Shown here piece by piece: positions 19,115-45,033 of a stretch of 64,000 nt of DNA. The notes beneath the pieces were generated by a model, which worked only from the letters and a program-made list of their open reading frames with translations, was not told where the DNA came from and did no database searches. Source of the DNA: Mycobacterium sp. BK086 (GTDB lineage Bacteria > Actinomycetota > Actinomycetes > Mycobacteriales > Mycobacteriaceae); NCBI GenBank assembly GCA_004362315.1, contig SNWL01000008.1, positions 518,171 through 582,170 on the forward strand. The letters are read 5' to 3'. Each line of letters starts with the position of its first letter. The stretch's first letter is position 1. Made by a program: the position numbers and the translations under genes.

Positions 19115-20110
19115 TCAGGACGCGGTCGGGTCCAGGGGCACCTGAACCGTGGTGAGCACCGCGCGGTGATCCGAGCCCGGAACCTCGATGGTCCGCACCG
19201 ATGAGGCGGCGGCATTCCGGGTCAGCACGTGGTCGATGGTGATGACCGGCGGGAACTTCCGGTTGGCGGGAAACGTCGGCGCGAACCCGGACCCGCTCTG
19301 TTCGACGGCATCGCGGTAACCGTTGGTCAGAAGATCCCGGAACTGGCGCATATCCGGGGTGCTGTTGTAATCGCCGCCGATGATCACCGCTCCGGGCCCA
19401 GCTGTGCGAGCGAAATTGTCCAATTGCACCTTCGCGCCGGCCATTCCGCCCCGCCACTCGGCGACCGTGTTCGTGTCGCCCGCGATGGGTGAGTAGACGT
19501 GGACGCTGGCCAGCAGCGGCTCGAATCGCAGACCGGGGATCTCCAGCTGCGCGGCCGGCATGCTCACGCCGCGGTGCCGTGGTGCCGACAGCACCGAGAG
19601 CGGATAGCGGCTCCATATGCCGATCCCGCCGGCGCCGGGGGCAGGCAGCAGATGCGAGTAGGGGAATGCGGCGTCGATGCCGGCTTTCTGGAGACGGTTG
19701 ACTGCCCCGGGTGTCAGCTCGGCGACGGTCACGACGTCGGCCTCACCTGTAGCCAGCTTGACGATGAAGGTGGGGTCCGCCTGCCCATGTCGCAGATTCG
19801 ACGAGAGCACCCGGATGTCTTGGTAGGCGCCAACATCCGCTGGTCTTCCGAGGTAATACCACGAGATCTGGACGGCGAGACTGGCCGCCACGACCGCCAC
19901 GGCAAGCATCGACAGCAGGTACCGGCGGCACGATGCTGCCACGATGACGCCGGCGAACGCGGCCAGCCAGACGTACGGTGACCCAACCGCGAGCACCAGG
20001 CTGGGAATGGTCGATATCGGCTGGGTGCGTGCGATCAGCGCCAGGGCGGTGAGGAGCAGTGTCGCGACGGCGAAGGTCGTCCACAGTGCGACGCGGATCG
20101 TGCGTGACAA
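19115..20110 (-). CDS. Membrane-anchored endonuclease/exonuclease/phosphatase-family protein
   Basis: This 331-residue protein has three N-terminal hydrophobic segments (about residues 8-27, 34-58 and 65-86), then an EEP domain with SSNLRHG, TVAELTPGAV, IIGGDYNST, TIDHVL and SDHRAV. These are the expected metal and catalytic positions of the DNase I/exonuclease III fold. Such membrane-tethered EEP proteins are common in actinobacteria; the substrate is unknown. It lies 61 bases downstream of the initiating glycosyltransferase gene and may be part of the cluster. Confidence 0.85.
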   Translation of the reverse strand: MSRTIRVALWTTFAVATLLLTALALIARTQPISTIPSLVLAVGSPYVWLAAFAGVIVAASCRRYLLSMLAVAVVAASLAVQISWYYLGRPADVGAYQDIRVLSSNLRHGQADPTFIVKLATGEADVVTVAELTPGAVNRLQKAGIDAAFPYSHLLPAPGAGGIGIWSRYPLSVLSAPRHRGVSMPAAQLEIPGLRFEPLLASVHVYSPIAGDTNTVAEWRGGMAGAKVQLDNFARTAGPGAVIIGGDYNSTPDMRQFRDLLTNGYRDAVEQSGSGFAPTFPANRKFPPVITIDHVLTRNAAASSVRTIEVPGSDHRAVLTTVQVPLDPTAS

Positions 20111-20171
20111 GCGGCGATGACCCTTCAGGAGTGCCGGTCCGTTGCCGGCACGCGCTGATCGGCCGGGTGTA

Positions 20172-21662
20172 TCAGTATGCGCCGCTGTGGCCCAACACTG
20201 CTCGTAGGGTCTTCACCGCAATGAGCAGGTCGGAGATCATCGACCAGTTCTCGACGTAGAAGAGGTCGAGCCGAACCGAGTCTTCCCACGACAGATCCGA
20301 GCGACCGCTGACCTGCCACAATCCCGTGATACCGGGCCGCACGAGGAGCCGCCGCTTCGCATAGTCGTCGTAGGACTTGACCTCACCGGCCAGCGGGGGC
20401 CGCGGACCCACGACGCTCATGTCGCGCTTGAAGACGTTGATGAACTGAGGTAGCTCGTCAAGGCTGTATTTGCGCAGGAACCGACCGACCGGGGTGATCC
20501 GCGGGTCGCTGCGCATCTTGAACAGCACCCCGCCTTCACTCTCGTTCAGTTCGGCGAGTTCGGCGCGCATCTTGTCGGCGCCGTCGACCATCGTGCGGAA
20601 CTTGATCATCTCGAACGGCTCGCCATCGAGCCCGATCCGCTCCTGACGGTAGAAGATCGGGCCCTTGCTGGTCAGCTTGATCGCGAGCGCGAGGGCCACC
20701 AGGACGGGCAGTCCGAACAAGAGAACGGTGCTGGAGAAGACGATGTCGAAGAGGCGCTTCTGGAATCGCTTGGCGCCGTGGTACTGCGGCTTCTCGACGT
20801 GGATCAGCGGGAGGCCGGCGACTGGGCGCATCTGCAGTCGCGGACCGGCGACATCGACGACTCCGGGCGCGACGAGCAAGTCGATGTTCAGTTTCTCGAG
20901 CTCCCAGGACAGATTCCGGATGCCGCGGCCGTCGAGCCGTTCGGTAGCGGTGATGGCTACCGCATGGCTGTTGGTGGCGGTGACCGCACCGACCACGTTG
21001 GTCTCGTCCCCGAAGGTCGGGATCGTTCCGACACCGGGAACGGTGAGTTCGGTCCGGTTGAGCGGGCCGGAAATGCAGGCGCCGACGACCTCGTATTCAG
21101 ACCATTCCTCGCGGGCCAACGACCTCGACAGGTCCCGTACTGCCGGGGCGCTGCCGACGACGACCACACGGGTGATGCAACGGCCGTACTTCTGTCGTGC
21201 CCGCACGACGATGCGGCGAGCGACCCATCGACCCAGGCCGAGGAAGACGATGCCGGCTGGGAGTGCGATCACCAGGTAGCCGCGAGCGATCTCGAGTTTG
21301 AACAACATCGAGATGATCGCGATGCCCCCGAATACCGCTGCGGTCCCCACCCAGACGCGTCGATACTCCTCGGCGCCGGATCCGATGATCCGCGGCGAGC
21401 GCGAGTGGTTGATCGACAACGCCAGCATCCAGAGCACGGCGATGGCGACCGAAACCAGCAAGTAGTTCGAATAGCGGTAGCCCAGATCGTTCTCCGGCAA
21501 CGCGCCGAAGCGCAGCCATTGGGCAAGACCGACCGAAAGGATGACGCCGATCAGGTCGACCGCGCCCAGCCTGCGTGAATAACTCTGTTGCCATGCCGGA
21601 AGTTGCTCCGGAATCGGCACGACCTGGGCCGGTGAATCCAGCCTGTCGTTGATTGCCGTCAT
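20172..21662 (-). CDS. Polyprenyl glycosylphosphotransferase, initiating enzyme
   Basis: This enzyme should transfer a sugar-1-phosphate from a nucleotide sugar to decaprenyl/undecaprenyl phosphate, starting the lipid-linked oligosaccharide. The 496-residue protein has about five membrane segments, a central CoA-binding-like domain (ITRVVVVGSAPAVRDLSRSL) and a C-terminal Bac_transf domain. The latter has KRLFDIVFSSTVLL, FYRQERIGLDGEPFEMIKFRTM, KYSLDELPQFINVFK and DMSVVGPRPPL. It resembles WcaJ/WbaP-type enzymes, so the first sugar may be glucose or galactose. A 154-base gap to the phosphatase gene holds a short hairpin (21755-21780) of unclear role. Confidence 0.94.
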   Translation of the reverse strand: MTAINDRLDSPAQVVPIPEQLPAWQQSYSRRLGAVDLIGVILSVGLAQWLRFGALPENDLGYRYSNYLLVSVAIAVLWMLALSINHSRSPRIIGSGAEEYRRVWVGTAAVFGGIAIISMLFKLEIARGYLVIALPAGIVFLGLGRWVARRIVVRARQKYGRCITRVVVVGSAPAVRDLSRSLAREEWSEYEVVGACISGPLNRTELTVPGVGTIPTFGDETNVVGAVTATNSHAVAITATERLDGRGIRNLSWELEKLNIDLLVAPGVVDVAGPRLQMRPVAGLPLIHVEKPQYHGAKRFQKRLFDIVFSSTVLLFGLPVLVALALAIKLTSKGPIFYRQERIGLDGEPFEMIKFRTMVDGADKMRAELAELNESEGGVLFKMRSDPRITPVGRFLRKYSLDELPQFINVFKRDMSVVGPRPPLAGEVKSYDDYAKRRLLVRPGITGLWQVSGRSDLSWEDSVRLDLFYVENWSMISDLLIAVKTLRAVLGHSGAY

Positions 21663-21816
21663 TTTCCCCCCAAGGAACGTCACGCTATCCCCGCAGTGAC
21701 GTCGTTGACCCTTCCGAATACTCTCACGGAGAGGGTGTTTTCGCATAGCGAACGGGAGGACTCGGTGACCTTCGTCCTCCGCGGCCGGCGCTCCTCGAAG
21801 CCGTCCATCCAGTTGG

Positions 21817-22326
21817 TCAGGCCTGCCGACAGATTTGCAGGATGGGCCGTAGGGCGTCGGTGATGTTGGCGCCGACCTCGGCAAAGAACTCGGGTTCGCG
21901 GCCGATCGGATCGGGGATGTCGTGCACATCGCGTGCGGGTAGCTGTCCACGCAGCGCAGCAAGGTCCTGAAGACGTTCGGCGTCGTAATCCTGCGCGAGC
22001 TTGGCCGCCTCGACGAGTGTGAACGTCTTGTGGAGCTGCCGAGGTGCCAGTTCCAGGACAGCGTCGCGGTGCGCCTTGGACATCGTGAGGACGAGATCGG
22101 CGTTCAGTGCGATCTTCGCGGTCAGCTGGCGCGCGGCAAACTGCGACGCGTCACCACCAAGCTGCTCGAGGACGGTTGCCGCATCGGGGTGCACCGGGTG
22201 ACCGATGACGGCGCGGGTTCCGGCGCTGGAGGTCGTGAGGTCGGAAATGCCTAGTTCAGCACCGTAGGTGAGGGCAAGTCGCTCTGCGGTCGGCGACCGG
22301 CAGATATTGCCTGTGCATACAAACAA
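21817..22326 (-). CDS. Low-molecular-weight protein-tyrosine phosphatase (Wzb-like)
   Basis: This 169-residue protein has the active-site P-loop VCTGNICRSP (Cys-x5-Arg-Ser) at its N-terminus and the catalytic Asp loop DIPDPIG near residue 140. It is a complete LMW-PTP. In capsule systems such enzymes (Wzb) dephosphorylate the Wzc kinase; a Wzc-like kinase is encoded at 41.5-43.0 kb of this cluster. The start is uncertain: TTG 22326 comes just before FVCTGN, and no ATG or GTG lies close upstream. It is in a leftward operon after the GT-methyltransferase fusion. Confidence 0.9.
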   Translation of the reverse strand: MFVCTGNICRSPTAERLALTYGAELGISDLTTSSAGTRAVIGHPVHPDAATVLEQLGGDASQFAARQLTAKIALNADLVLTMSKAHRDAVLELAPRQLHKTFTLVEAAKLAQDYDAERLQDLAALRGQLPARDVHDIPDPIGREPEFFAEVGANITDALRPILQICRQA

Positions 22327-22401: not shown

Positions 22402-24147
22402 TCACCGCCTGGTGTAGCGGGCAGTGAAGGTAGGGCTCCACGGGGCACCCGACAGTTCGGCGCCCGCAGGGAGGAGCTTCCGGAATTGGCGACGCGACAG
22501 GAGTCGAGTGAAGTCCGCTTCATGCTTTCTGCTCCAGGCCGGAAACCAGTGCAGAAAGATCGCCGAGGTGTGTGACTCGATCGGAAACCACTTGTTCGGG
22601 GTCGTGATGACCCACGTGCGGGCCACCCGCGTCATCTCCTCGACCATCTTGCGCTGTTCGGCCTCTTGGCCGACATGCTCGATGATCGCATTGGCGAGCG
22701 CGAAGTCGACGTAGTCGTCCTCGAACGGCATATCCCTGGCGTCGGCAATCATGAAGGGGTAGGCCGTGATTGCGGGCTCGATATTGATGCTCATCTTCAC
22801 TTCGTAGTTCGCCGCGAGCCGCTTCTCGACGATTCCCGCGTTGACCATTCCGCTGTTCCCGATGTGCTCGTCGCCCATCGTTCCGACGAGCAGCACATCC
22901 TTGACGTTCTGCTCCTGCAGGAAGGTGAGAATCTGATCTGCTTTGCGATGCCGGTTGCGCACGCTGTAGGACAGCACTGCTTTTCGCACCAGCTTCTTGA
23001 GCTGGGTGCCCGCCGCTGCGACCACTCGTTTACCGAAGCCCACGCGCTCTCTGGTGGCGAGCACACGAAGTTCGTGCTCGTAGTCGTGGCAGACCTGCTC
23101 CCACGAGTAGTGTTCGTTCGCTCGTTGGACATTCGCCCGACATGCCTCGTCCAAGTTGTCGGGGTTCGCCATCATCGCGAGGATCGTTTCCGCGATCTCG
23201 TCAGGATTGGGGGCCACGAACTTTCCTGCCGCGCCCAGCACTTCGCGGCTGTAGATGGTGTCGCGGGCGAGAATCGGCGCACCGGCCGCCATCGCTTGCA
23301 CGAGTGTGGGATTCGTGCCCCCGACAGTGTGGCCGTGGAAATACACGCCCGCGTGCTGCCACAGTGCCAACAGGCGGGAGTATTCACTGATGTGGCCCGT
23401 CCACGTCACCGACGGGTGGTTCGCTGCGAGTTCCCTTGCTGCGGTGTCCCATTCGTCGTTGTAGCCCGAGCTGCCGACAATCACCACCGGGTGTTGCGCG
23501 GCGACCTTGGGCACTGCCGCGAAGAATTCGGGGATGCTGTTCTCTGGCACGAGGCGGCAGACGCTGAGCACATAACCGCGATGCTCCAGGCCATCAGGCA
23601 CCGGCAGTGGTGGCGGCACCTCGGATCCGTACGGAATGAAGGCGCCGTCGAGGCCCCACTTCTCGTGCCAGTACTTCTCGATCGCGCGCGCGTCGAAGAG
23701 CAGACGGTCAGCGGTGCGCGCCGTGAACTCGGCACCTGTGCGGAAGACGAATCTGGCCAGTGGATTCCATTTGGCGCGTTCCCATTCGATGCCGTCGACA
23801 TTGACGAGCGACGGGATGCCGCGAGCCTTGAGCAACGGTAGGAAATAGCCGTTGCCGACGTTGAACACCAGCGCTGCGTCGTGGCCGCGAATCGCGGCGT
23901 CGACGCTCGAGGTGAGCCCGTACGACAGCGTGCTCAGGCTCTTCGTCTCGAGGCCACGTGTCAACGGTGTGGCAACTCTGGGGTCGGTGTCCGGATCGTC
24001 GAGCCGCGTAGCGCCGTGACGGCAGTACACCGTGACGTCCCAGCCCTTGTCAGCCAGGTATGGCGCGACCTTGCGAACTGCCGTCTCGAAGCCACCGTAA
24101 TAGCTCGGATAACCCCGCGTTCCGATGATCGCTACTGATGGCACCAC
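22402..24147 (-). CDS. Glycosyltransferase (GT4, DUF1972 type) fused to a class I methyltransferase
   Basis: This 581-residue protein has two parts. Residues 1 to about 365 are a GT-B glycosyltransferase with the DUF1972 opening (AIIGTRGYPSYYGGFETAV), NVDGIEWERAKW, and HGHTVGGTNPTLVQAMAAGAPIL, the GT4 donor-binding region. Residues from about 395 form a SAM-methyltransferase-like domain: VKDVLLVGTMGDEHIGNSG, DARDMPFEDDYVDFALANAIIEHVG, then RVARTWVITTPNKWF. In related clusters these are usually separate proteins. The rhamnosyltransferase-like N-part plus the methyltransferase suggests an added, then methylated, sugar. GTG 24147 starts it. Confidence 0.88.
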   Translation of the reverse strand: MVPSVAIIGTRGYPSYYGGFETAVRKVAPYLADKGWDVTVYCRHGATRLDDPDTDPRVATPLTRGLETKSLSTLSYGLTSSVDAAIRGHDAALVFNVGNGYFLPLLKARGIPSLVNVDGIEWERAKWNPLARFVFRTGAEFTARTADRLLFDARAIEKYWHEKWGLDGAFIPYGSEVPPPLPVPDGLEHRGYVLSVCRLVPENSIPEFFAAVPKVAAQHPVVIVGSSGYNDEWDTAARELAANHPSVTWTGHISEYSRLLALWQHAGVYFHGHTVGGTNPTLVQAMAAGAPILARDTIYSREVLGAAGKFVAPNPDEIAETILAMMANPDNLDEACRANVQRANEHYSWEQVCHDYEHELRVLATRERVGFGKRVVAAAGTQLKKLVRKAVLSYSVRNRHRKADQILTFLQEQNVKDVLLVGTMGDEHIGNSGMVNAGIVEKRLAANYEVKMSINIEPAITAYPFMIADARDMPFEDDYVDFALANAIIEHVGQEAEQRKMVEEMTRVARTWVITTPNKWFPIESHTSAIFLHWFPAWSRKHEADFTRLLSRRQFRKLLPAGAELSGAPWSPTFTARYTRR

Positions 24148-24235: not shown

Positions 24236-24937
24236 TCAGTCCGCGGCCGACGCTGGCGGCGCCTTCACAAGCGTGTTCGCGAAGACATAGGACTCAGGAG
24301 TGCCGATATCGACGATTCCGGATTCCACGACCTGAAAGCGAGGTCGCAAGGTCGGGAGTTGTGGCGCAAGGAAGTCGGTCTCGAAAGAGAACGACATGCG
24401 ATCCGGGAACGAGGCGAGCAGGGCGCGACGGCATCCATATGTGCCGGCATTGACCAAACCCGGTCCGGTACCGCCCTTCTCCCGAAATCCGATCGCGACA
24501 TCGCCGTCGGTGACGACGCTCCCGTACCGGCCGACGTCGTCGATGTTCGCCAGGCTCATGCTCAGGGAGCCGGATCCGAGCAGGCCTAGCAGCTTGACGA
24601 AATCGACGTCGGCAAAGGTGTCGCCGTTGGCGAAGACGAACTCGTCGGCGAGATGGTCGGCGGCAGCCTTGAGCGCCCCGCCCGTGCCGAGTGGAGTGTC
24701 CTCGAAGCTATAGGTGACCGGCACATCGCGGTAAACGCTGCCGAAATGCTCGGTGATGACGTGGGAAGCGTAGCCAACGAGCAAGTGAATACTGTTGACT
24801 CCCTGCGCAATTGCGCGATCGAGAAGATGTTCGAGAAACGGCTTGCCGCCGATCGGCGCCATCGGCTTTGGCAGCCCTTCGGGAATCGCTCCGCGCAACC
24901 GGGTGCCAAGACCGCCCGCAAGCACTACCAACTGCAT
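24236..24937 (-). CDS. hddC: Nucleotidyltransferase HddC-like (heptose-1-phosphate guanylyltransferase)
   Basis: This 233-residue sugar-nucleotidyltransferase has the signature VVLAGGLGTRLRGAIPEGLPKPMAPIGGKPF, then EDTPLGTGGAL and FVFANGDTFADVD. The last step of the heptose pathway joins D-glycero-D-manno-heptose-1-phosphate to GTP, giving GDP-heptose. The family alone does not fix the sugar. Its place six bases after hddA and with gmhA and gmhB makes HddC by far the best reading. It is in the same leftward operon. Confidence 0.87.
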   Translation of the reverse strand: MQLVVLAGGLGTRLRGAIPEGLPKPMAPIGGKPFLEHLLDRAIAQGVNSIHLLVGYASHVITEHFGSVYRDVPVTYSFEDTPLGTGGALKAAADHLADEFVFANGDTFADVDFVKLLGLLGSGSLSMSLANIDDVGRYGSVVTDGDVAIGFREKGGTGPGLVNAGTYGCRRALLASFPDRMSFSFETDFLAPQLPTLRPRFQVVESGIVDIGTPESYVFANTLVKAPPASAAD

Positions 24938-24943: not shown

Positions 24944-26014
24944 TCAGGCCTCCGACAGCCGCTTGGCCGGACGAGAAGGAAGACGCCACGTCGCGGCACC
25001 GCTCTTGGTGAACAAGCAGGGCGCCACGGATCCGCCGCACTGTTGCTCGAGGTTCCGGACGACCTCGATCCGCCGCCGGGGGTCCACGATCATCATCAAG
25101 AAGCCGCCACCGCCGGCACCGGACACCTTGCCCGCCACCATGCCGCTCGACTGCGCGACTTGATACGCGCGTTCGATCGTGGGGTTGGAGATCCGCGAGG
25201 CGAGACGCTTTTTCGCCTCCCAGCCGCGGAGCAGTGATTCGGCGAAGCCCGGTATATCGCCCAGTACCAGAAGGTCTTTCATCTCCAGCGCCTCGGTCCG
25301 TAGCGCATGAGTTGCCTTCAGCGCGTCCTCGTCTCGCTGCTCAACGTTGCGCTGCTGCTCGGCAATGACCTCGGACGACAACCTGGACACCCCGCCGAAG
25401 TAGAGGAGCAAGGATGCCTCCAATTCAGCGATCACCTCGCGCCGGATCCGAAGCGGATTCACCACCACATCGCCGTCGCTCTCGGGACGGGTCTCCATGA
25501 AGTTGAATCCGCCGAATGCCGCCGCATAGTGGTCCTGCCAGCCGCCCGCCATCCCGAGATCGACGCGCTCGACCTCCCAGGCCAGACGCGCGAGCTCGTA
25601 CGGTCCGGGAGTGACTCCGATCAGGTCGCAGGTCGTCACCAGCATCGCTACGACCAGTGCCGACGACGAGCCCAACCCCGACCCGGGTGGGGCGTCGACC
25701 TGGGTGGCCAGTTTGAGGGGGAACGGCGCACCACCGTTGAACTCCTTGACCACTCGCCGGTACACGGCCACGTGCAACGGAAAACCGTCCTCGAGCGAAG
25801 CGAGGTCGTCGATCCGGGCCTTGCCTGCGCGATCCCGGTCGGGGGAGCGGAAGGCTACTTCGTCGTCGTCCGCGCGTTCGGCGAAGGCGTACGCATAACG
25901 ATCGATCGTGGCGTTGAGAATTCGCCCCCCGAATTCCTTACAGTACGGATCGACATCGGTTCCTCCGCCGCCCAGGCCGAGTCGCAGAGGGGCCCGCCCG
26001 CGTACAACAGTCAT
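24944..26014 (-). CDS. hddA: D-glycero-D-manno-heptose-7-phosphate kinase HddA (GHMP family)
   Basis: HddA phosphorylates C1 of heptose-7-phosphate. The 356-residue GHMP kinase has [20 protein letters not shown] at the N-terminus, the ATP loop [17 protein letters not shown] near residue 112 and the C-terminal [14 protein letters not shown] loop. These match the HddA/mevalonate-kinase-like branch. ATG 26014 overlaps the gmhB stop as ATGA. M. tuberculosis has a related set (Rv0113-Rv0115), so the pathway is known in the genus, though this locus is different. Confidence 0.92.
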
Positions 26015-26616
26015 GAGCCCAGTTCCTCCCTCGCATGCTCAACTGCGACCGCGAAGTCCCAGAGGGAATTAAATGATGCGTTGGCGAACCCCACGACACT
26101 TGCTCGCCCCCCGATTCCAATACTGACACAGCCGCCAACTGCCGTCGCGACGTTCTGAGCCAACTCCATGTCACTTGGGCTGTCCCCTGCGACGACACTC
26201 AGCGACGCCTCGACGGCGGGATGGTCATTCAGCCAATCCAGCACAAGTCCAGGCTGAGGCTTTCGGCAGGAGCAGTGCTGTGACTCCAGGTGGGGGCACA
26301 CCTGAAACCCGTTGACGGTCACGCCGTCCTGAATCAGCGCCGCCTGAATGTTCTGGTGAATCGTGGTGACGGCGTCGATGCTCATCAGGTGCTTGCCTAC
26401 GCCTTGCTGGTTGGTGACGACCACCAGATGCGGCGCCCATTCACTGAGCTTCTTGATCGCGTCGCGCGCTCGGGGCAACCACTCGAAGTCTGCCCAGCTA
26501 CGTACATAGTCATCGACGATCTGCCGGTTGATGACGCCGTCCCGGTCGAGAAATAGACACCAGTCGCGCCCGATCCGATCGGCGACGATTTGGCGAATTT
26601 CCAACTGCGTTGGCAA
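26011..26616 (-). CDS. gmhB: D-glycero-D-manno-heptose-1,7-bisphosphate phosphatase GmhB-like (HAD family)
   Basis: This 201-residue HAD phosphatase has motif [20 protein letters not shown], motif [14 protein letters not shown], and the zinc-loop [23 protein letters not shown]. The CxHxxxxCxCRKP element is diagnostic for GmhB/histidinol-phosphatase-like enzymes. [10 protein letters not shown] is motif IV. It removes the 7-phosphate of the heptose bisphosphate. It starts at TTG 26616, four bases after gmhA, and overlaps hddA by four bases. Confidence 0.92.
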
Positions 26617-26619: not shown

Positions 26620-27201
26620 CTATTCCTGTCGTGCGAACATTGCATATTCCACGTGCTCAGAAATCGCATGGATAAAAACAATGTGGGATTCTTGAATTCG
26701 CCCGGTATCGCGTGACGGGACATTAATCAGAAAGTCCGCGAACTCTGCGAGCTTTCCACCGGTCTCGCCGGTCATCGCGACGACGGTGACGCCGATGTCG
26801 CGTGCCACGGTGGCCGCGCGCAGAACATTCGGCGAATTCCCGGAGGTGCTGATCGCGACGAGGGTATCGCCGGGGCGGGCGGACGCCTCGAGTGCGCGAG
26901 CAAACACGGTGTCGTAGTCGTAGTCGTTCGCAACCGCCGTGAGGTGTGACGAATTGCCATGTAGTGCTTCAGCGCCAAGCGGCGGCCGGTCGAAGATGAA
27001 GTGTCCGGTCAGTTCAGCGGCAAAGTGTTGCGCATCGGCTGCACTGCCGCCGTTGCCGCACATGAACACCCGCGACCCGGCGCGGTAGCCTTCGATCAGC
27101 CGATCCCCGACCGCGCGGACCGTTTCCAATAGCGCCGGATCATTCAGGACCCGGGTCTTCACCGCGATCGTCTCTGTGAAGATCTCCTCAAGCGTTCTCA
27201 T
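26620..27201 (-). CDS. gmhA: Sedoheptulose-7-phosphate isomerase GmhA
   Basis: GmhA isomerises sedoheptulose-7-phosphate to D-glycero-D-manno-heptose-7-phosphate, the first committed step. The 193-residue SIS-domain protein has [17 protein letters not shown] near residue 48, the sugar-phosphate loop [11 protein letters not shown], and the C-terminal [16 protein letters not shown]. All are GmhA hallmarks. ATG 27201 follows a GAGGGGG ribosome site. It heads the leftward operon gmhA-gmhB-hddA-hddC-GT/MT-PTP-initiating transferase; a divergent promoter region (27202-27341) separates it from rightward glycosyltransferases. Confidence 0.95.
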
Positions 27202-27341: not shown

Positions 27342-28373
27342 ATGAATCTCCGGAACACCACGATGAACGGCAGTAGAGGCCAGTTGAACGACCCCCGCAG
27401 AAGCCCGTCAGTACGGATCTATAGCCCGTTGCACAAGGTGTCCGAGCATTTCGTGGAGCGATTGATCGAGTCCATGGACAGTCGTGGCGTGCCGACGGTA
27501 CGGCTGGCGTCACGTGATGGGGAGGTCGGCGGCGACAAGCTTGCCAAGGCTCGCGCACTCGGCGCACATGTGTGGAATGTTCGCCGGTACGTTGCGTCGG
27601 GTGGACCCAATGTGGTCGCGTGGCCACTCCTCGGCTGGTGGGAGATGCCGCTGTGGCGACATCGAGCGCACGAGACTCTCATCGCGATGCACGACCCGGA
27701 ACCCCTGGTCACCCAAAATGGCCTGACGGCACAGGCCGCCGAGCGGGCGGCTCGGTTGTGCGGGTCGGCGTGGCCACATCTGGTCACGATGAGTCCGGAA
27801 GCCCACGTCATCGCGACCAAATACTTCGGGGAGGACCGCGTCCATCTCGCGCCGCATCCGATGCGGGCACCCGATCTATCCGTTGTTCGCCCTGCCAAGG
27901 ACACGGTTCTTGTTCTGGGACAGTACAAACCCGCGCGCGATCTGGACGTGATGGCAGCGATCGCTCCGACGCTACGAGCGGGTGGCTGGCAGCCAACGGT
28001 CGCGGGTCGGGGGTGGCCGGCCATCCCGGGCTGGCGCGTCATCGATGGATTCTTGCCAGAGGATGAGTTCAAGCAGCTGCTGGCGTCAGCCGCGGTTGTC
28101 CTTTTGCCCTATCGGTACTACTTCCAGAGCGGGGTGGCGTTGCGCGGACTGGAGGCCGGCGTGCCTATCGTCGGTCGCAGAACGGGCTTCCTGACGTCGG
28201 TTCTGGGCGCGGAATTCCCAGGTGGCGTTGATGATTGGGATGACCCAACATCGTGGTTGGCCGCGGTCAACGCAGCCGCACATGCCAGAGCCGATCAATT
28301 GGCTTCGGCCACGGCCTATTCAATTCGGGGGGCAGAAGAATGGCACACCTTGATCCAGGGTCACACCGACTGA
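27342..28373 (+). CDS. Glycosyltransferase, GT-B fold, unassigned specificity
   Basis: This 343-residue protein looks like a GT-B glycosyltransferase. The C-terminal donor half contains VLVLGQYKPARDLDVM, PEDEFKQLLASAAVVLLPYRYYFQSGVALRGLEAGVPIVGRRTGF and a GVDDWDDPTSW closing segment, the GT4-like donor site. The N-terminal half (KVSEHFVERLIESMDSRG, HDPEPLVTQNG) is divergent. The start may be ATG 27342 or ATG 27363. It begins a rightward set with a GT2 and a second GT4 gene and so probably adds a sugar to the lipid-linked unit. Confidence 0.75.
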   Translation: MNLRNTTMNGSRGQLNDPRRSPSVRIYSPLHKVSEHFVERLIESMDSRGVPTVRLASRDGEVGGDKLAKARALGAHVWNVRRYVASGGPNVVAWPLLGWWEMPLWRHRAHETLIAMHDPEPLVTQNGLTAQAAERAARLCGSAWPHLVTMSPEAHVIATKYFGEDRVHLAPHPMRAPDLSVVRPAKDTVLVLGQYKPARDLDVMAAIAPTLRAGGWQPTVAGRGWPAIPGWRVIDGFLPEDEFKQLLASAAVVLLPYRYYFQSGVALRGLEAGVPIVGRRTGFLTSVLGAEFPGGVDDWDDPTSWLAAVNAAAHARADQLASATAYSIRGAEEWHTLIQGHTD

Positions 28374-34021: not shown

Positions 34022-34023
34022 CG

Positions 34024-38156: not shown

Positions 38157-38882
38157 CTATTCCGAGCCCAGCCGCGCGGTGGCGCCGCCGTCCACGACCA
38201 GAACGGCCCCGGTGACGAAGCGGGCGTCGTCCCCGATCAGGAAGGAAACCGCTCCGGCGACATCGCTCGGTTCGCCGATTCGCCGAAGTGCGGTTCGTTC
38301 GCAGAGCACCGCCCTGCGCTCCTCGGCCACATCGTCGCCCCAGCGGGCGAAGCCTTCGCGAAGTTTTGCGGTGTCGATCGCGCCGGGAGTCACGGCGTTG
38401 ACCCGAATCTCGGGGCCGAGGTCCAGCGCTGCCGCGCGCACCCAGCCCTCCAGTGCTGCCTTGGTTGTGGCGTACGCGGTTATCCCTCGAGTGGTCGCCC
38501 GGGCGTGCACGCTGCCGACGACCACGACGGACCCGTCGTGGACCGCAAGGCTGCGGCGGGTCGTCGAGACGAGCGCATCCACCGCAATCACATTGACGCG
38601 AAACGTGTCTGACCATTCGGTGACCGACGTCTCGCCGGCGCCGGCCATCGGTTGGATCGCGGCGTTGTGCACGATTGCCTTGAGCTCGTACTCCTCGGCC
38701 AGCTGCGTGCCCAATTCGGCAAGCCGGTCAGTGTCGCGGAGGTCGACCTGAATGTCGACGTCCGCTTCAGTCGCGGCGTTCTGGTCGAGTCCGATTGCTA
38801 GATAGCCATCCGTGCGTGCGCGCTGGCACAGTGCGGCACCGATGCCGCCCGCGGCGCCGGTGACGATGACCGCGCGAGTCAC
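38157..38882 (-). CDS. Short-chain dehydrogenase/reductase in the CMP-sugar operon
   Basis: This 241-residue SDR has VTGAAGGIGAALCQRA at residues 6-21, HNAAIQP in place of NNAG, and the catalytic YATTKAALE Tyr/Lys pair. The GTG at 38882 overlaps the hydroxyacid dehydrogenase stop (GTGA), and the protein belongs to the chain cytidylyltransferase, hydroxyacid dehydrogenase, SDR. It probably oxidises or reduces an intermediate of the CMP-activated sugar or acid. The exact substrate is unknown. Confidence 0.87.
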   Translation of the reverse strand: MTRAVIVTGAAGGIGAALCQRARTDGYLAIGLDQNAATEADVDIQVDLRDTDRLAELGTQLAEEYELKAIVHNAAIQPMAGAGETSVTEWSDTFRVNVIAVDALVSTTRRSLAVHDGSVVVVGSVHARATTRGITAYATTKAALEGWVRAAALDLGPEIRVNAVTPGAIDTAKLREGFARWGDDVAEERRAVLCERTALRRIGEPSDVAGAVSFLIGDDARFVTGAVLVVDGGATARLGSE

Positions 38883-39811
38883 CTCGAGAGCTCCTCGATG
38901 AGGAAGTCGACGGCCGCGGCGCTGGCACGCTCGACGCCTTGGCGTGTATTCGAACCATTGTGGGCGCCCAGCACCACATTCGGCAGCGTCCGAAGCGGGC
39001 TGTCCATCGGCAGGGGCTCGCTCTCGAAGACATCGAGCGCGGCACCGGCAAGACGCTTGTCCGTCAACGCATCGATCAACGCGACTTCATGCACGACAGG
39101 GCCTCTGGCGACGTTCACCAGATACGCGTCGGGCTGGACAACGGCGAGTGCTTGGGCGTCGATCAGGTGAAACGTCTCCGCGGTCAGCGGGCATGCCATG
39201 ACGATGAATCGGCTGGTAGCCAACAGCGTGCTGAGGTCGACAATGGCGGTATCGGCATCGCTGTCGACAAACGGGTCGTAGGCAACGACGTCCATGTCGA
39301 AACCCCTTCCGCGCTTGGCGATTTCACGACCGATCGCGCCGAAGCCGACGACACCGAGTCGAGATCCGGCCAGCGTGAAGCCTTCCCACTTGGGCCATTC
39401 GCCGCGCCGGACGGCGGAGTCCACTGTGATGTAGCCGCGGGCCAGGTTCAGGATGTAGCCGAACGCCGAGTCCGCGACCTCCTGGCCGAAGACCCCCGGA
39501 GTGTTGCGCACCCGCACACCGTGCCGGCGGGCCGCCTCGTGATCCACGGAGTCCATCCCGATTCCCCAGCGGATCACCGTCTTGAGATTGTGTGCGCCCG
39601 CGAAGAACTCGCTGTCCAGCTCGTCGTCGCCCGCGATGATCCCCACCAGCCGGGAGTCGCCGTGTTCGAGGAGCTCGGCAGCGGTGAACTGTTGGCGCCC
39701 ACCGAGATCCGGTGCGATGACTTCGTAGCCAAGGCTTTCGATGCGCTCACGGTGCCGCGGAAGTTCGACCTGCATCTGCCGGCAGGTCACCAGTACCAGC
39801 GGTGCGCTCAT
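38879..39811 (-). CDS. D-isomer specific 2-hydroxyacid dehydrogenase (SerA-like)
   Basis: This 310-residue oxidoreductase has the NAD motif LGVVGFGAIGREIAKRG, and the catalytic Arg (VNVARGPVV), Glu (DVFESEP) and His (VVLGAHNGSN) expected of phosphoglycerate/glycerate dehydrogenase-like enzymes. The segment RWGIGMDSVDHEAARRHGVRVRNTPGVF is typical of the family. ATG 39811 overlaps the cytidylyltransferase stop by four bases. Such enzymes interconvert 2-keto- and D-2-hydroxyacids, so it may form the acid handled by the CMP-sugar synthetase; this is inference. Confidence 0.88.
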   Translation of the reverse strand: MSAPLVLVTCRQMQVELPRHRERIESLGYEVIAPDLGGRQQFTAAELLEHGDSRLVGIIAGDDELDSEFFAGAHNLKTVIRWGIGMDSVDHEAARRHGVRVRNTPGVFGQEVADSAFGYILNLARGYITVDSAVRRGEWPKWEGFTLAGSRLGVVGFGAIGREIAKRGRGFDMDVVAYDPFVDSDADTAIVDLSTLLATSRFIVMACPLTAETFHLIDAQALAVVQPDAYLVNVARGPVVHEVALIDALTDKRLAGAALDVFESEPLPMDSPLRTLPNVVLGAHNGSNTRQGVERASAAAVDFLIEELSR

Positions 39812-40482
39812 GTGTTGATCGGGTTGCCGTGGGCGATGGCCGATGCCAGCGCGAAGTCCTCTTCGGTGTCGATGTCGACCGCTTCCAACGCGGACATCTC
39901 GAACATGTGCGGGCGTGCGCCGATACGATTTCCGCGCTCCCGCAACAACTCCGGAGTGAAGATGAAGAAGCAGGAGTTCTCGATGAACAACGGCGGCAGG
40001 TCTTGTGTGCGAAGTAGGACCGCCGGATTGTGGTTGACCGGTTGCGTTTCGGCGTCCCACAGCCGGGCCTGCAGGCGCGTGACGCTGAAGACCGAATCGA
40101 ATTCGCGGCCCGACTGGGCGAAAGACCGCAACGCCGAGGACACCGTGTCGGCCTTCAGGAATGGGTTCGTCGAATGCGTTTGCAGGACGGTGTCGGCGTC
40201 GACTTGGTCCAGCGTGTTGAGGAGAACGTCGTTCATCGCGATGTTGCCGTCGCGCAAGTGTTCTGGGCGCAGCAGCACCCGCACGAGCGGGAAGTGCTCG
40301 GCACAGTCGTCGATGATGAAATCGCTGTCGGTGTCGATGACGATGGTGTCGATCTCATCGACGGCGCTCAGCGTGCGGACGACGTGGTGATACAGCGGAA
40401 TTCCTGCGAGGGGACGGTAGTTCTTCCCCGGCACGCGCTCACTGTTGTGGCGCATCGGGACGATCGCGACGGTGTTGGTCAT
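39808..40482 (-). CDS. CMP-sugar synthetase / acylneuraminate cytidylyltransferase-family protein
   Basis: This 224-residue nucleotidyltransferase begins VAIVPMRHNSERVPGKNYRPLAGIPLYHHV, the NeuA/KdsB-like nucleotide-binding region. It has TIVIDTDSDFIIDDC, VDADTVLQTHSTNPFLKADTV and ALEAVDIDTEEDFALAS near the end. These fit the CMP-ulosonate synthetase fold, which couples CTP to an acidic sugar. The window has no NeuB/KdsA-like synthase, so the substrate is either made elsewhere or is not an ulosonate. The coupled dehydrogenases downstream suggest a dedicated small pathway. Confidence 0.87.
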   Translation of the reverse strand: MTNTVAIVPMRHNSERVPGKNYRPLAGIPLYHHVVRTLSAVDEIDTIVIDTDSDFIIDDCAEHFPLVRVLLRPEHLRDGNIAMNDVLLNTLDQVDADTVLQTHSTNPFLKADTVSSALRSFAQSGREFDSVFSVTRLQARLWDAETQPVNHNPAVLLRTQDLPPLFIENSCFFIFTPELLRERGNRIGARPHMFEMSALEAVDIDTEEDFALASAIAHGNPINT

Positions 40483-40502: not shown

Positions 40503-41459
40503 CTAGGAGTCTTCGGAGTATTCGATCTTGAGACCGGGTTCCGCGGGCGTGTCAGCGCTTCTCGAGTCAGCGGGGTAGTAGAAGCGCTCCCGCAATCCTG
40601 CGGTCACATGATCGGGCGCCCGGAAACCCTCCCAAGCGCCGATGAACTGGGCGAAGCGGAACTGCGGGATGCTGAGCACATTGCTTCGGAGCCGGTTCAC
40701 CTTGACTGCCTCCTTGTAATCGCTGGCGATGTTGGACAGCGCCAGCCCCACGGCATTCGGCAGCGTCATCTTCGCGCCCTCGACGATGCGGGCGTAGGCC
40801 ATCGCCTCGCGCCGATACCGATTGCGGATGATGCTCCAACTCTCCTCGTGAACGTGCACAACGGGTGCATCTGCAACGTAGGAGATCTTGTAGCCGCGGG
40901 TGAGGGCTTTCTTCGCGAAATCAAGGTCTTCAAGGCCGGTGAGGGATTCGTCGTACGGCATCTCGGCCCAGACCGACTTCAGCACGGCGGCGTTGGCATT
41001 GTTGCTGAAGGGGTGCCCCTGATCCCAGATGTTCTGGTGGGGAAACCATTTGAGCATCACCCGCGACTCGGAGAACTTGGTCCGCTCGTCTCCGACCTGA
41101 CGTCCGTAGGCGATTGCGACGCCTCGGCGATCAAAGGCGTTGACGATGTGCTCGACATAGGTGTTGTAGACCGGGTAGACGTGTGCCGAGGCGAACAGCA
41201 GGATGTCGCCCTCGGCCGCCGCGCAACCCCTGTTCAGGGCCCGCCCGAACGAGAACTCCTCTTTCGCGATGTGCACGATCCGGCAACCGGCCGCCTCGGC
41301 AATGGCGACGGTGTCATCAGTGGAGCCGGAGTCGACGAGGATGATCTCGTCGGGCTTGACGGTCTGCTGGGCCAAGCCCTTCAGCAGCCGGCCGATGTGC
41401 TTGCTTTCGTTATAGGCGCGGATGACCGCTGATACCCGGCGTGACTTAATCTCGCTCAT
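40503..41459 (-). CDS. Family 2 glycosyltransferase
   Basis: This 318-residue GT-A enzyme has SAVIRAYNESKHIGRLLKGLAQQTVKPDEIILVDSGSTDDTVAIAE, FGRALNRGCAAAEGDILLFASAHVYP and TGLEDLDFAKKALTRGYKISY. These are the N-terminal GT2 acceptor, the DxD-like site and the ED catalytic motif. ATG 41459 follows CTGAGG; an upstream in-frame extension would overlap the kinase gene. It is in the leftward chain from the kinase to the flippase/polymerase and probably adds one residue of the repeat unit. Confidence 0.9.
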   Translation of the reverse strand: MSEIKSRRVSAVIRAYNESKHIGRLLKGLAQQTVKPDEIILVDSGSTDDTVAIAEAAGCRIVHIAKEEFSFGRALNRGCAAAEGDILLFASAHVYPVYNTYVEHIVNAFDRRGVAIAYGRQVGDERTKFSESRVMLKWFPHQNIWDQGHPFSNNANAAVLKSVWAEMPYDESLTGLEDLDFAKKALTRGYKISYVADAPVVHVHEESWSIIRNRYRREAMAYARIVEGAKMTLPNAVGLALSNIASDYKEAVKVNRLRSNVLSIPQFRFAQFIGAWEGFRAPDHVTAGLRERFYYPADSRSADTPAEPGLKIEYSEDS

Positions 41460-41475: not shown

Positions 41476-43017
41476 TTACTCGGAAGACTCGCGCTTTCCA
41501 CCCGCTGGCTTCGCAGCTTCTTTGCTGCCGACGCTCTCGGGTTCAGCGACCTTGGTCCCGTTCACGGGTACACGATCGGAGCCCTCCGGGCTGCTTTCCG
41601 TAGCGGCCACGTTGCCGTTTGTCTCGACCGGTGACTCCTTGGCGGACTCCCGCCGGTCGTCCCCGTAGTTGCTGTAGCTGTAGTTGTAGCTGTACCGAGA
41701 GCCGCCGCGGGTCGGCGTCATGGTGAATACCGCGCCGAGCACCGTTGCGCCGACGTCGGTGAGGTTTCCGATGGCGTGCGCCAGATGCTCACGCTTGGTC
41801 TGCCCGAACCGCGACATGACAAGCGCGCCATCGGAATTGGCCGCCAGAATCGCACCGTCGGTCACGGCAAGAAGTGGCGACGAGTCAACGACGACATAGT
41901 CGAATTGCTCACGAAGCTCGGCGAGGACGTTCTTTGCGGATTGCGAGCCCAGGAGCTCACTGGGATTCGGCGGTGACGCACCGGACGTCAACACGGTGAG
42001 ATTGGGGAACTTGGTCTTCTGCAGGACTTCCGACAGGGAAGCCCCGCCGCTGAGCACGGTGCTGAAGCCCACGGCACCGACCAGGTCGAGGTAGCGGTCG
42101 ACGGACGGTCGGCGCATGTCGCCATCGACAAGCACAACCTCATGTTCGGCTTCGGCAAGTGCCAGCGCGATATTGATCGCGGTGGTCGACTTGCCCTCGT
42201 GGGGTGATGAACTGGTCACCACGATGACGCGAGGTGGATTGTCGACGTTGAGGAACTGCAAGTTGGTGCGCAGCTTGCGGAACGATTCCGCAATGGCGGA
42301 GTTGTCGCTTTCGAAGGAGACCGCTGGTTCTCTCCGGCGATCCTTGTCCATCGGGATGCTGCCGACCAGGCCGACGCCGGTGATCTCTTCGAGGGTCTCG
42401 CGGTCCTTGACCGTGTTGTCCAGCCGATCGCGGACAACGGCAATACCCACTCCGAGGAGCAAACCGGCGGCGAGACCGAGTGCAATGTTGCGCGGCGGGT
42501 TCGGAACGACGGGTGCGGCTGGGATGGACGCCCGCTGTTCGACGACGACCCGCGCGTCGGCCTTGGTGGCACCCTGCGGCGGAGTCTCCAATTCGGTTAT
42601 CAGCAGCACGAATTCGTCAGACATCGCGTTGGCGATGTCACGGGCCCGAACCGGTGAAGGGTCGAGCACCGAGACATCGATGAGCACGGTGTCGGGCTTC
42701 GCGGTGGCCTTGACTTTCCCTTTCAACTGCTCCGCGGACATATCGAGGTTGAGCTTGTCGATCGTGCGCTGGGCCAGCGTTTCGCCCATGAGCAGTTCCG
42801 TGTAGGACAGCACACGTTCCTGCGAGAAGCGGTTGCCCTGGTACAGGTCGTTGAGCGAGGAACCTGAGGACGTCGACACGAAGAGCCGCGTCGTGGCCTG
42901 GTACTGAGGAGTCGTCGCAAACGTGTACGCGAGCGCGCCCAAGACGGCGACCAGCGTGGTAACGCAAATGGTGATCCAGCGGTTGCGCAGGACTTTGACG
43001 AAATCCTGAAGATTCAC
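41476..43017 (-). CDS. Wzc-like polysaccharide co-polymerase and tyrosine autokinase
   Basis: This 513-residue protein has an N-terminal Wzz domain with membrane segments near residues 15-35 and 176-194 (NIALGLAAGLLLGVGIAVV), then a cytoplasmic BY-kinase with the Walker motif VTSSSPHEGKSTTAIN and EVVLVDGDMRRP. Between residues 442 and 451 sit five tyrosines (RYSYNYSYSNY), the autophosphorylation cluster, followed by an acidic, low-complexity tail of about 60 residues. Such proteins control chain length and assembly. The LMW-PTP at 21.8-22.3 kb is its likely phosphatase. It heads the leftward biosynthesis chain; 162 bases separate it from the DUF4012 gene. Confidence 0.93.
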   Translation of the reverse strand: MNLQDFVKVLRNRWITICVTTLVAVLGALAYTFATTPQYQATTRLFVSTSSGSSLNDLYQGNRFSQERVLSYTELLMGETLAQRTIDKLNLDMSAEQLKGKVKATAKPDTVLIDVSVLDPSPVRARDIANAMSDEFVLLITELETPPQGATKADARVVVEQRASIPAAPVVPNPPRNIALGLAAGLLLGVGIAVVRDRLDNTVKDRETLEEITGVGLVGSIPMDKDRRREPAVSFESDNSAIAESFRKLRTNLQFLNVDNPPRVIVVTSSSPHEGKSTTAINIALALAEAEHEVVLVDGDMRRPSVDRYLDLVGAVGFSTVLSGGASLSEVLQKTKFPNLTVLTSGASPPNPSELLGSQSAKNVLAELREQFDYVVVDSSPLLAVTDGAILAANSDGALVMSRFGQTKREHLAHAIGNLTDVGATVLGAVFTMTPTRGGSRYSYNYSYSNYGDDRRESAKESPVETNGNVAATESSPEGSDRVPVNGTKVAEPESVGSKEAAKPAGGKRESSE

Positions 43018-43179
43018 TGTGCCCCCCTAACTGCAGGCTTGCTCTGCGCAAGACCCCAATGCCCGCTATGACCCCCCTGGAACTGACGCCTCAAAGCGTC
43101 TGTTGTTGCGGGCTGGACTCGCGGCAAGCCTATCAACGCAGGCACTGTGGCACCGCGCTGACTGAAGGAACGTTCTGGA

Positions 43180-45033
43180 CTAACTGCACGTCGGCACCGA
43201 TACCTTCGGTGTGACGTCGTCAGCAAGCGGCTGAAGCGGTACCCGCGCAGCTCCCGGCGCCGTCGGCTCGGTGAGCCGGAAAATCAATTCGACAGTTTTG
43301 CCTGGTGGGATGGCCACCTGAGACTCGAAGCTGGGGTGCCCGCGCTCCATCGCACCGAACACCCGGGTCCTCTTGCCGTTGGCGAGGACGCTGATCACGT
43401 CCGCACCCTTGGTTGTCAGCAGACGAACCGAGGTGAGCATCGTGCCTCTGGGGATATCCCCGGCGACCTCGGGGAAGAAGCCCAGACGCCCCGCCGCGTA
43501 CTCGGGCAGCCCCGCCGCGTCCGCGTCTTTGAGCGTGTTGGTCAGCCGGATCGTCACCGTCGAGGTGCGTTTGTCGCCGTCACAGCCGTCGGCCACGTAC
43601 TCGATCTGGCGATCCAGGTAGTAATCCAGCTTGTTGCCGCCGAGATTGTTGATGACGACCTCCGCGTATGGCGCCGGATCATCGGGGATCTCGTGTGCCA
43701 GTGGGGTCTGTTCCAGCAGCTTCTGGTCTTCCGGATTGGAGCTCCACACCGCGATTCGGCGCTCACTGACCGCACGCCCCAAAGCGTCGAGAAGCTTGCG
43801 CGGCGATTCCACCGGCTTGGTGATCTTCTTGACGACCTCGGTGGCGATCTCCTGCAAGTAGCGCTTGCGTGCGGCTTGATCGGTGGGAAAGCGGCTGTAG
43901 ACGGTGGATTCGGTCAGTTCGACGACGTTGTCCTTGGTCACGGTCTCACCATCGGGCAAGGTGATCGCTCCGGTGGCGCCGAGGATATAGCTCAACGCGA
44001 TCGGATCGATCGCGATCACCCCATCGACATTCATCCCCGTCTGTTGCGCCCACAGCGACCTCCAGATCTGCGCCGCGTAGGGAAAATGCGAGCTCTGATT
44101 GCTGTTGCGGAAGTCGGTGGTGGGATTGGTGAACCCGTACTGCTCGTCGAACTCGGGGTTGATCGAGAAGGGCTTGAATGCCTTGTCGAGTTCGGTGTTC
44201 GGTCCGAGGTTGTCCACACTCGGTTTGCCGTCGTCGAACCGGAGGATCCCGAAGCCGCCGAGCAGCCCGCCGGTGCCTCGGGCCTCGGCGTTGGTCTGGA
44301 ATCCCATGAAATAGCTGCGAGGGCCATCGGCGCCCAGCAGGGACGGGGCCAGCCGCGCGGCAAGAGCCGTGTTGCCCAGCAGCCGCGAAATGTCAGATGC
44401 CTGCGCTTGAAGCTGTGTCCGGGCGCCACCGATGGCGGAGAGATACCCCGGAACTGAAATCGCCTGCGCGGCGGCGTCGAGCCGAGCCGCGTCGGCCGCG
44501 ATCTTGGTCAACGTCGGTTCTTGCTTCCGCAGCGCCTGCACGTCCAGCCTGCCGTTGGCGAGCAACTGGTCGGGCGCGACTGTCGCACCGGCATCGGCAA
44601 CGGGTTTCAACACGTCGGCGGCCAGGCCGAGCACCACGTCGGATATCTGCTGACCGGTCTTGAACGGGCTGCCCAACCAGGGCACGACGGCGACGACGTT
44701 CCACGGGATGGAATGTGTCGCATCGCGTGCATCCTGCGCGTGCGATTGCGCCTCGCCCGCCAGGCGTGAGGCATCCTTCGTATTTCCCTGCAGGAGTGCG
44801 TCTTTGGCCTGCTGCGCACTGCTGCGGGCCTGCTCGAGGCTCGACTTCGCCTCTTGTGCTCGCACGCCGAGCCAACATCCGAACGCAATGACAACGATGA
44901 GCACCCCGAGTGCGGACCAGAGGACCTCTCGACGCTGGAACCAGCGTCGGTCTTCGCTATCGCCTTCGTCGGTCAGGATCGCATCGTTGTCGTCCGGGTC
45001 GTCGTTGAACCGTCGTTGCGAAAAGAATTTCAC
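43180..45033 (-). CDS. DUF4012-domain membrane protein
   Basis: This 617-residue protein has one membrane segment near residues 38-58 (VLWSALGVLIVVIAFGCWLG), then a helical region (EQARSSAQQAKDALLQG, probably coiled coil) and a long extracellular domain matching DUF4012. Conserved parts include YFMGFQTNAEARGTGGLLGGFGIL and NVDGVIAIDPIALSYILGATG. DUF4012 proteins accompany exopolysaccharide clusters in actinobacteria; the GFQTNAEARGTGG segment resembles the LytR/CpsA-like fold region. It may help polymer attachment or transfer, but this is not established. It is the first leftward gene of the cluster. Confidence 0.85.
   Translation of the reverse strand: MKFFSQRRFNDDPDDNDAILTDEGDSEDRRWFQRREVLWSALGVLIVVIAFGCWLGVRAQEAKSSLEQARSSAQQAKDALLQGNTKDASRLAGEAQSHAQDARDATHSIPWNVVAVVPWLGSPFKTGQQISDVVLGLAADVLKPVADAGATVAPDQLLANGRLDVQALRKQEPTLTKIAADAARLDAAAQAISVPGYLSAIGGARTQLQAQASDISRLLGNTALAARLAPSLLGADGPRSYFMGFQTNAEARGTGGLLGGFGILRFDDGKPSVDNLGPNTELDKAFKPFSINPEFDEQYGFTNPTTDFRNSNQSSHFPYAAQIWRSLWAQQTGMNVDGVIAIDPIALSYILGATGAITLPDGETVTKDNVVELTESTVYSRFPTDQAARKRYLQEIATEVVKKITKPVESPRKLLDALGRAVSERRIAVWSSNPEDQKLLEQTPLAHEIPDDPAPYAEVVINNLGGNKLDYYLDRQIEYVADGCDGDKRTSTVTIRLTNTLKDADAAGLPEYAAGRLGFFPEVAGDIPRGTMLTSVRLLTTKGADVISVLANGKRTRVFGAMERGHPSFESQVAIPPGKTVELIFRLTEPTAPGAARVPLQPLADDVTPKVSVPTCS

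Follow-up and report, generated by a model that had tools for sequence, protein, structure and literature searches.

The stretch of DNA considered here is a 64-kb window on contig C6 of Mycobacterium sp. BK086, whose genome measures 6.93 Mb, and its central part is occupied by a glycan gene cluster of about 26 kb (19115-45033). The cluster lies between rplA on the left (18356-19066, + strand; a 100% match to itself, and present in 141 of 148 genomes of the genus) and two CMAS/mmaA-type genes on the right (48971-50918, - strand; PF02353), the first of which spans 48971-49864. Genes were called with our own script and assigned to families with Pfam and NCBIfam profiles and the cut-offs of each model. 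A sequence-only reading of the same DNA had described a Wzx/Wzy-type cluster of this size between rplA and mmaA, and both its coordinates and its gene kinds agree with the Pfam and NCBIfam assignments.

Three genes of the cluster can be regarded as its scaffold. They encode a low-molecular-weight tyrosine phosphatase (LMWP) of the Wzb-like kind (21817-22326, - strand; PF01451, LMWPc, E 3.7e-25), a protein in which Wzz is fused to a bacterial tyrosine kinase (BY-kinase; 41476-43017, - strand; PF02706, AAA_31 and TIGR01007 above cut-off) and a DUF4012 protein (43180-45033, - strand; PF13196, E 7e-44) with one N-terminal hydrophobic segment as judged by eye. A further 25 DUF4012 loci were read, over at most 20 kb each (20 of them at rplA-mmaA and five elsewhere), and the phosphatase and the Wzz-kinase were present without exception. 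The Wzz-kinase of the window has the Walker A, A' and B motifs and the C-terminal tyrosine cluster by which BY-kinases are recognised. Among 25 copies searched with our own patterns, a set that includes the window and in which the copy of G082 was not called and the gene call of G009 is incomplete, Walker A was found in 21, A' in 24, B in 16 and the tyrosine cluster in 24. The processing genes are joined by an initiating polyprenyl-phosphate hexose-1-phosphate transferase (BacTr; 20172-21683, - strand; PF02397, Bac_transf/EPS_sugtrans; TIGR03025 with 418.5 bits against a cut-off of 295.55), and a transferase of the same subtype (at least 49% identity) occurs in 11 of the 25 sister loci.

The flippase and the polymerase were recognised through their relatives. 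Positions 35138-38146 (- strand) hold a single open reading frame (ORF) of 1002 amino acids, which itself gives no Pfam match above cut-off. It was identified as a Wzx-Wzy fusion because the separate proteins of its relatives match Polysacc_synt and Wzy_C. Ten such proteins, one of them from G082, were scanned: four of the five on the Wzx side match Polysacc_synt (PF01943) above cut-off, L099 giving no match, and all five on the Wzy side match Wzy_C (PF04932), three above the cut-off and two just under it. The flippase covers residues 1-470 approximately, followed by a linker with two likely transmembrane helices at about 505-543 (by eye) and by the polymerase at about 557-1002. Flippase and polymerase occupy separate frames in eight other distinct loci (G037, which is L036 of M. 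austroafricanum; G144; G099; L054; L046, or L193; L085, or L195; L035, or L197; and G035, where the two genes lie apart) and are fused only in the window (n = 9). The automatic frame lengths of 987 and 1265 amino acids for G037 and G099 conflict with separate frames, and the reading of the DNA was preferred. Relatives of the fusion were found in 8 of the 148 genus genomes, the window genome counted, and in none of the eight genomes closest in RplA. The flippase and polymerase genes of L036/G037 are separated by DNA that contains in-frame stops and bears little likeness to the linker of the window, and in L193 (the L046 locus) one stop is all that separates the two open frames, which share a register; it is therefore possible that the fusion arose by loss of a stop in the window lineage. 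The fused frame may also be a sequencing slip. That just one of the nine loci has the fusion might point to drift, and the whole locus might be a decaying remnant or functionless, but this reading is barely credible: the main ORFs of the cluster are open and have coding-type codon use, the linker scores as coding and the enzyme motifs are kept.

The centre of the cluster also carries a group of genes for a sugar activated with cytidine monophosphate (CMP), referred to below as the module. It comprises a GT2 glycosyltransferase (GT2b; 40503-41459, - strand; PF00535, E 2.2e-23), a NeuA/PseF-like CMP-sugar-acid synthetase (CMPs; 39808-40482, - strand; PF02348, CTP_transf_3, E 2.3e-32), a D-2-hydroxyacid dehydrogenase (HADH; 38879-39811, - strand; PF02826, E 7.8e-56, with the usual motifs), a short-chain dehydrogenase (SDR; 38157-38882, - strand; PF13561, E 1.9e-40, with YxxxK and the glycine motif) and, on the other side of the fusion, an SMP-30/gluconolactonase (SGL; 32171-32956, - strand, in an ORF open to 33043; PF08450, E 2.2e-71). 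The best PDB matches of the synthetase are NeuA-type enzymes (1qwj, CMP-NeuAc synthetase, E 2e-15); the PseF model stays below its cut-off, and the KN and DID motifs are kept. By our own patterns the motifs of the module are conserved, with two exceptions: three of the four lactonase patterns matched and one did not, and the first match of the HADH pattern N.ARG was not at the site expected for it.

The scaffold was then followed across the genus. The DUF4012 gene is present in 42 of the 148 genomes and by hand count lies beside rplA and/or mmaA in at least 26 of these, with 13 elsewhere and three unplaced; among the matches listed, 21 of the 26 share a contig with rplA at a distance of no more than 50 kb and five were placed via mmaA alone. 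In DUF4012-negative genomes, a gap of about 3-17 kb separates rplA from mmaA (hand reading of same-contig pairs among the matches listed). Both the count and the short gap support the sequence-only view that a Wzy-style system is not a standard feature of mycobacteria. All eight genomes nearest by RplA (at least 95%) carry the locus beside rplA and/or mmaA: in G136, G004, G024 and G009 both sides are on one contig, and in G043, G053, G093 and G018 the locus is seen from the mmaA side, with rplA on another contig. A scan of named sequences, in which 80 of 92 confirmed DUF4012 stretches were kept, returned Mycolicibacterium and Mycobacterium except for one Rhodococcus, three contigs of metagenome-assembled genomes (MAGs) labelled as other phyla and three labelled Actinomycetes. 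The fetched flank contains mmaA in 35 and Wzz in 67 of these 80 loci, many flanks ending at contig ends. The nearest named kin of the DUF4012 protein are those of Mycolicibacterium sphagni, M. vinylchloridicum and M. rhodesiae, and the DUF4012 tree places the window with the first two (support 94, not starred).

These data bear on the idea that a whole foreign capsule island was inserted recently, in a one-off event, into this genome. It draws on the low GC of the cluster and on the 106 of 148 genus genomes in which DUF4012 was not found. It is nonetheless very unlikely, given the position of the locus beside rplA and/or mmaA in the eight nearest genomes and the kinship of the DUF4012 scaffold gene with the M. 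sphagni and M. vinylchloridicum copies. The insertion that the sequence-only reading had proposed for this genome is likewise contradicted by the presence of the locus at the same site in all eight nearest genomes and of an mmaA flank in 35 of the 80 named loci. That reading had also held that universality of the cluster at this position in close relatives would tell against it; kind and place are indeed the same there, but the content differs. The interval is an old, variable glycan site, and the central cassette is what differs. Two side observations concern its distribution. In G066, on contig C37 (97016-145757), about 47 kb separate rplA from the closest mmaA among the matches listed, and DUF4012 is on another contig, which makes this another large insert at the same rplA-mmaA site. 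The three MAG contigs (L027, L053 and L055, labelled Planctomycetota, Verrucomicrobia and Acidobacteria) carry DUF4012 proteins 66-72% identical to that of the window and look like mis-binning.

Comparison of the 25 loci provided the evidence for exchange of the centre. The cassette core (GT2b, CMPs, HADH and SDR) was found in five of them (G035, G037, G054, G099 and G144), of which only G035 is among the 20 at rplA-mmaA; in 19 of these 20, hydropathy predicts two or more proteins that have at least six transmembrane helices, and in G096 it predicts one. The nearest relatives by DUF4012 (77-87% identity) have no cassette gene within the stretch read, and GT2b and CMPs reach 75-84% identity in loci whose DUF4012 stays at 58-75%. 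The centre of the window is thus missing in its closest relatives and found in distant ones. When the cassette label is mapped onto a DUF4012 tree built from 28 chosen rows, it requires 9 changes against a mean of 9.1 after shuffling, with 300 of 500 shuffles as low. In approximately unbiased (AU) tests the cassette clade is rejected by the DUF4012 data (p-AU 1.2e-6) and the DUF4012 clade of window, L029, G035 and L085 is rejected by the cassette data (p-AU 5e-4). Several points weigh on the other side. The clades for the AU tests were chosen after viewing the tree of the other gene, and five of the 'no cassette' rows (L013, L018, L021, L024 and L079) were seen in part only, for at most 10 kb on each side. 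The pairing of L085 with G035 is not rejected by the cassette data (p 0.28 and 0.48) and G054, L054 and G099 are held together on the cassette tree, which means that scaffold and cassette have some of their history in common. Across 10 loci, the rank correlation of identity between DUF4012 and cassette genes is not significant either for GT2b (rho -0.22, p 0.53) or for CMPs (rho 0.59, p 0.07), and the case for exchange therefore rests on gene content and trees. At the level of sequence, the histories of scaffold and cassette conflict, and the centre appears to have a history of its own.

Base composition has a smaller part in the argument. The GC of the cluster is 0.629 (13 2-kb windows) against 0.666 for the genome (standard deviation 0.022, 5th percentile 0.632), the reference being a sample of 175 windows of the same length (2 kb), drawn from 18 stretches of this genome. 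At third codon positions, the genes called between 24236 and 38146 have a GC of 0.70-0.79, and the four genes on the rplA side one of 0.86-0.92. The AT-rich parts pointed out in the sequence-only reading are thus real, but the left flank at 8-17 kb also falls partly at 0.61-0.64, and this weakens the argument from GC. As to the horizontal gain suggested there, exchange of content is borne out by gene content and trees, whereas a whole-cluster insertion peculiar to this genome is not.

Wzx/Wzy loci for capsule or exopolysaccharide are known as the cps loci of Gram-positives and as group 1 capsules. The window resembles them in its initiating transferase, Wzx, Wzy, Wzz with BY-kinase and Wzb-like phosphatase, of which the sugar transferase and the Wzz-kinase were found directly and Wzx and Wzy via relatives, and also in having conserved processing genes that enclose an exchangeable set of glycosyltransferase and sugar genes. 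It differs from them in its mycobacterial host, in having Wzx and Wzy in one ORF and Wzz and BY-kinase in one protein, and in the adjoining DUF4012 gene. The pattern of capsule serotypes, conserved processing genes around an exchanged centre, was found here between species. The rplA-mmaA interval is therefore probably a capsule-like Wzx/Wzy glycan locus that behaves like a serotype (cps) locus across the genus, with conserved processing genes, replaceable cassettes of sugar and transferase genes and more than one chromosomal site. The comparisons show that the parts are present, that the three scaffold genes are conserved and that the centre varies between species; expression, polymer composition and place on the cell are predicted from these genes. 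In the proposed scheme, the Bac_transf enzyme would load a sugar phosphate onto polyprenyl phosphate and the glycosyltransferases would assemble a repeat unit whose sugars include an activated heptose and an acidic one activated with CMP. This unit would then be flipped by the Wzx half of the fusion and polymerised by its Wzy half, with chain length set by the pair of Wzz-BY-kinase and LMWP phosphatase and with DUF4012 as a putative outer partner.

The module seems to be the most novel part of the locus and points to an acidic sugar. Within the genus, 19 of 396 genomes have a HADH match with an E value of 1e-90 or better. Counting distinct loci, four of 12 additional stretches being merged as longer versions of L046, L085, L035 and L054 and one as the L061 locus, GT2b adjoins CMPs in all 18 other module loci of the genus and GT2b-CMPs-HADH-SDR are colinear in 17, the eighteenth (L029) running off its contig after HADH. 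SGL lies in the same stretch in 16 of the 18, the misses being L029 and L054, both on short contigs; identity falls to 31% for the SGL of G027. Seven module loci of a second type (G488, G440, G132, G449, G039, G546 and G610) show no Wzz, DUF4012 or Wzx within 19-20 kb, and in six of the seven there is a protein of one cluster whose tested member matches the MptE-like family above cut-off; the profile of this cluster aligns with Rhodobacterales MptE-like proteins at 100% probability, with 46% over 219 columns. Loci of this type (L190-L192, L194, L196, L199 and L200) possibly make a glycolipid or a protein glycan, and one example, L190, holds GT2, FkbM and MptE-like proteins, a GDP-mannose dehydratase and ABC-2 exporter genes. 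Such loci, together with the Pfam label of Wzy_C ('O-Antigen ligase'), would suit an alternative in which the window locus glycosylates a protein or a lipid, Wzy_C acting as a ligase or oligosaccharyltransferase and no polymer being made. We consider this unlikely, since Wzz with BY-kinase and phosphatase in every one of the 25 DUF4012 loci fits control of polymer length and not transfer of single units.

Beyond the genus, CMPs was matched in 5 of 298 genomes of the order, the window genome included. In two genomes of another family four module genes are colinear (42-52% identity), and in two order genomes CMPs stands alone within 3.7 kb. Eight of 23 plasmid matches of CMPs were inspected. GT2b, CMPs, HADH, SDR and SGL occur together on plasmids of Thalassovita and Sulfitobacter (SDR and SGL 27-33% identical), GT2b, CMPs and HADH on those of Gemmobacter and Pararhizobium, and CMPs with HADH in Acuticoccus; by annotation, MptE-like proteins lie near the module in three alphaproteobacterial plasmids. 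The plasmid loci of Enterobacter, Paracoccus and Sinorhizobium (CMPs at 32-37% identity) have no HADH, and that of Enterobacter carries a NeuB-family gene.

The synthase expected to make the acid was sought in 16 module-bearing genomes. NeuB was matched in none of 10 in one set and in one of six in the other, this single match being weak and lying at the position of a DAHP-synthase match in the genome of the window itself. PF00793 (KdsA/DAHP-I) was matched in eight of the 16. Both were unmatched in the other eight, and the acidic sugar is therefore probably made there by a route without a synthase that condenses phosphoenolpyruvate. The window genome has a PF00793 protein elsewhere, and for it the argument rests on relatives. 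These results allow the tentative proposal, rather doubtful at present, that the module produces a CMP-activated ulosonic (sialic-acid-like) acid oxidatively, with no need of NeuB or KdsA, and also uses it, and that mycobacteria have this portable pathway in common with marine alphaproteobacteria. SDR would oxidise an aldose to the lactone, the gluconolactonase would open it, HADH would oxidise C2 to give a 2-keto acid, the NeuA-like enzyme would use cytidine triphosphate to activate this acid, and transfer would be carried out by the adjacent glycosyltransferase, or in other loci by MptE-like proteins; the order of these reactions is conjectural. Against such a route, kdsA adjoins the module in Thalassovita and an aldolase gene is present in Acuticoccus, both of which fit other sources of the keto acid. 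Compared with the pathways to CMP-nonulosonate and CMP-Kdo (NeuA, PseF and KdsB), the synthetase of the window is nearest to NeuA/PseF-type enzymes, and the module differs in that SDR, lactonase and HADH travel with CMPs and in the single weak NeuB match among 16 genomes.

The rest of the cassette includes a putative heptose set of the GDP-heptose type, encoded on the - strand. GmhA, the sedoheptulose-7-phosphate isomerase (26620-27201; NF010547, 382 bits against a cut-off of 320), is the only member above the cut-off of its model. For the HddA-like heptose-7-phosphate kinase (24944-26014) and the HddC-like heptose-1-phosphate nucleotidyltransferase (24236-24937) the best NCBIfam models, NF049969 (317 bits, cut-off 600) and NF049965 (163 bits, cut-off 300), stay below theirs, and the GmhB-like heptose bisphosphatase (26011-26604) is above cut-off for the HAD phosphatase domain TIGR01656 and below it for the GmhB models. 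Among the 25 other DUF4012 loci this set is complete only in G035. M. tuberculosis GmhA is the subject of PMC7705670. The window shares with M. tuberculosis a GmhA, here one above the NF010547 cut-off; unlike M. tuberculosis gmhA and its partners, the set stands in a glycosyltransferase cassette beside Wzx/Wzy, and the genome has gmhA and hddA paired once more, in a different glycan locus.

Five glycosyltransferases were counted in the cluster, GT2b among them. The others are a GT4 enzyme fused to a methyltransferase domain (22402-24147, - strand; profile match and comparison with sister loci), a GT4 (27342-28373, + strand) recognised by a weak PF13692 match below cut-off only, a GT2 (28390-29328, + strand; PF00535) and a GT4 (29325-30479, + strand; PF13692), whose start was taken from our own gene caller. 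Downstream on the + strand lies a beta-helix-like protein (30775-32133; weak PF13229 match, below cut-off) with a twin-arginine-like N-terminus (SRRTLL, by eye) and with homologues in G035, G144, L069, L077 and L092; it is possibly an exported enzyme that modifies the polymer, such as a lyase or epimerase. An FkbM methyltransferase (33182-34021, + strand; PF05050) is followed by a protein with a GPSL motif (34018-35217, + strand), which our script did not call and which is 63-65% identical in three relatives. It is a candidate sugar transferase, a possible assignment. Its assignment as an MptE-like (Maf) transferase found no support: PF01973 gives E 0.16 and 12.2 bits against a cut-off of 34.6, hhalign gives probabilities of 2.5 and 1.7% against MptE-like sets, and the likeness is limited to the short GPSL motif. 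Searches of solved structures with this protein, with the Rhodobacterales MptE-like proteins and with the alignment of the fusion gave no useful match.

The mycobacterial capsule is usually described as made of glucan, arabinomannan and mannan. If the locus acts as proposed, many mycobacteria would, like streptococci, have surface polymers peculiar to each species, which would probably affect phage adsorption, biofilm and grazing. If the oxidative route were also true, there would be a sialic-acid-like sugar on mycobacterial surfaces, and the co-travelling CMP module suggests an acidic sugar with a testable synthase-free route. In the open-licence full-text literature, titles and the beginnings of abstracts revealed no mycobacterial Wzx/Wzy locus or nonulosonic acid, which is weak evidence. 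DUF4012 is mentioned in two papers on Bifidobacterium. Plasmid pYLL2 of Rhodococcus sp. YL-1 is like the window in carrying DUF4012 with glycosyltransferases, a MATE-type transporter and an O-antigen-ligase protein, and unlike it in that the DUF4012 protein is 51% identical and the other neighbouring genes differ.

A second Wzx/Wzy-type locus (L187) was observed in the same genome (G000), on contig C6 at about 146-161 kb. It contains Polysacc_synt_3, Wzy_C, a Wzz-kinase (54-55% identity), HddA (84%), a second copy of GmhA (85-86%; gmhA copy 86%), a GDP-mannose dehydratase-like protein and a cellulase-like protein, and no initiating transferase among the ten proteins scanned. Of the genes at the cluster boundaries, an endonuclease/exonuclease/phosphatase-family protein (19115-20110, - strand; PF03372, Exo_endo_phos, E 1.1e-20) adjoins rplA in several sister loci. 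On the right, the extracytoplasmic function (ECF) sigma factor and YCII genes (46919-48823) were assigned to the flank because they adjoin mmaA also in three cluster-free genomes (G006, G120 and G064), and every locus in which Abhydrolase_3 (45833) was seen also has DUF4012. The ORF at 45030-45590 is probably not a gene. Between DUF4012 and Abhydrolase_3, a short ORF without a family match (45157-45639) has coding-type codon use, and an ORF overlapping it matches L013, L014 and L019.

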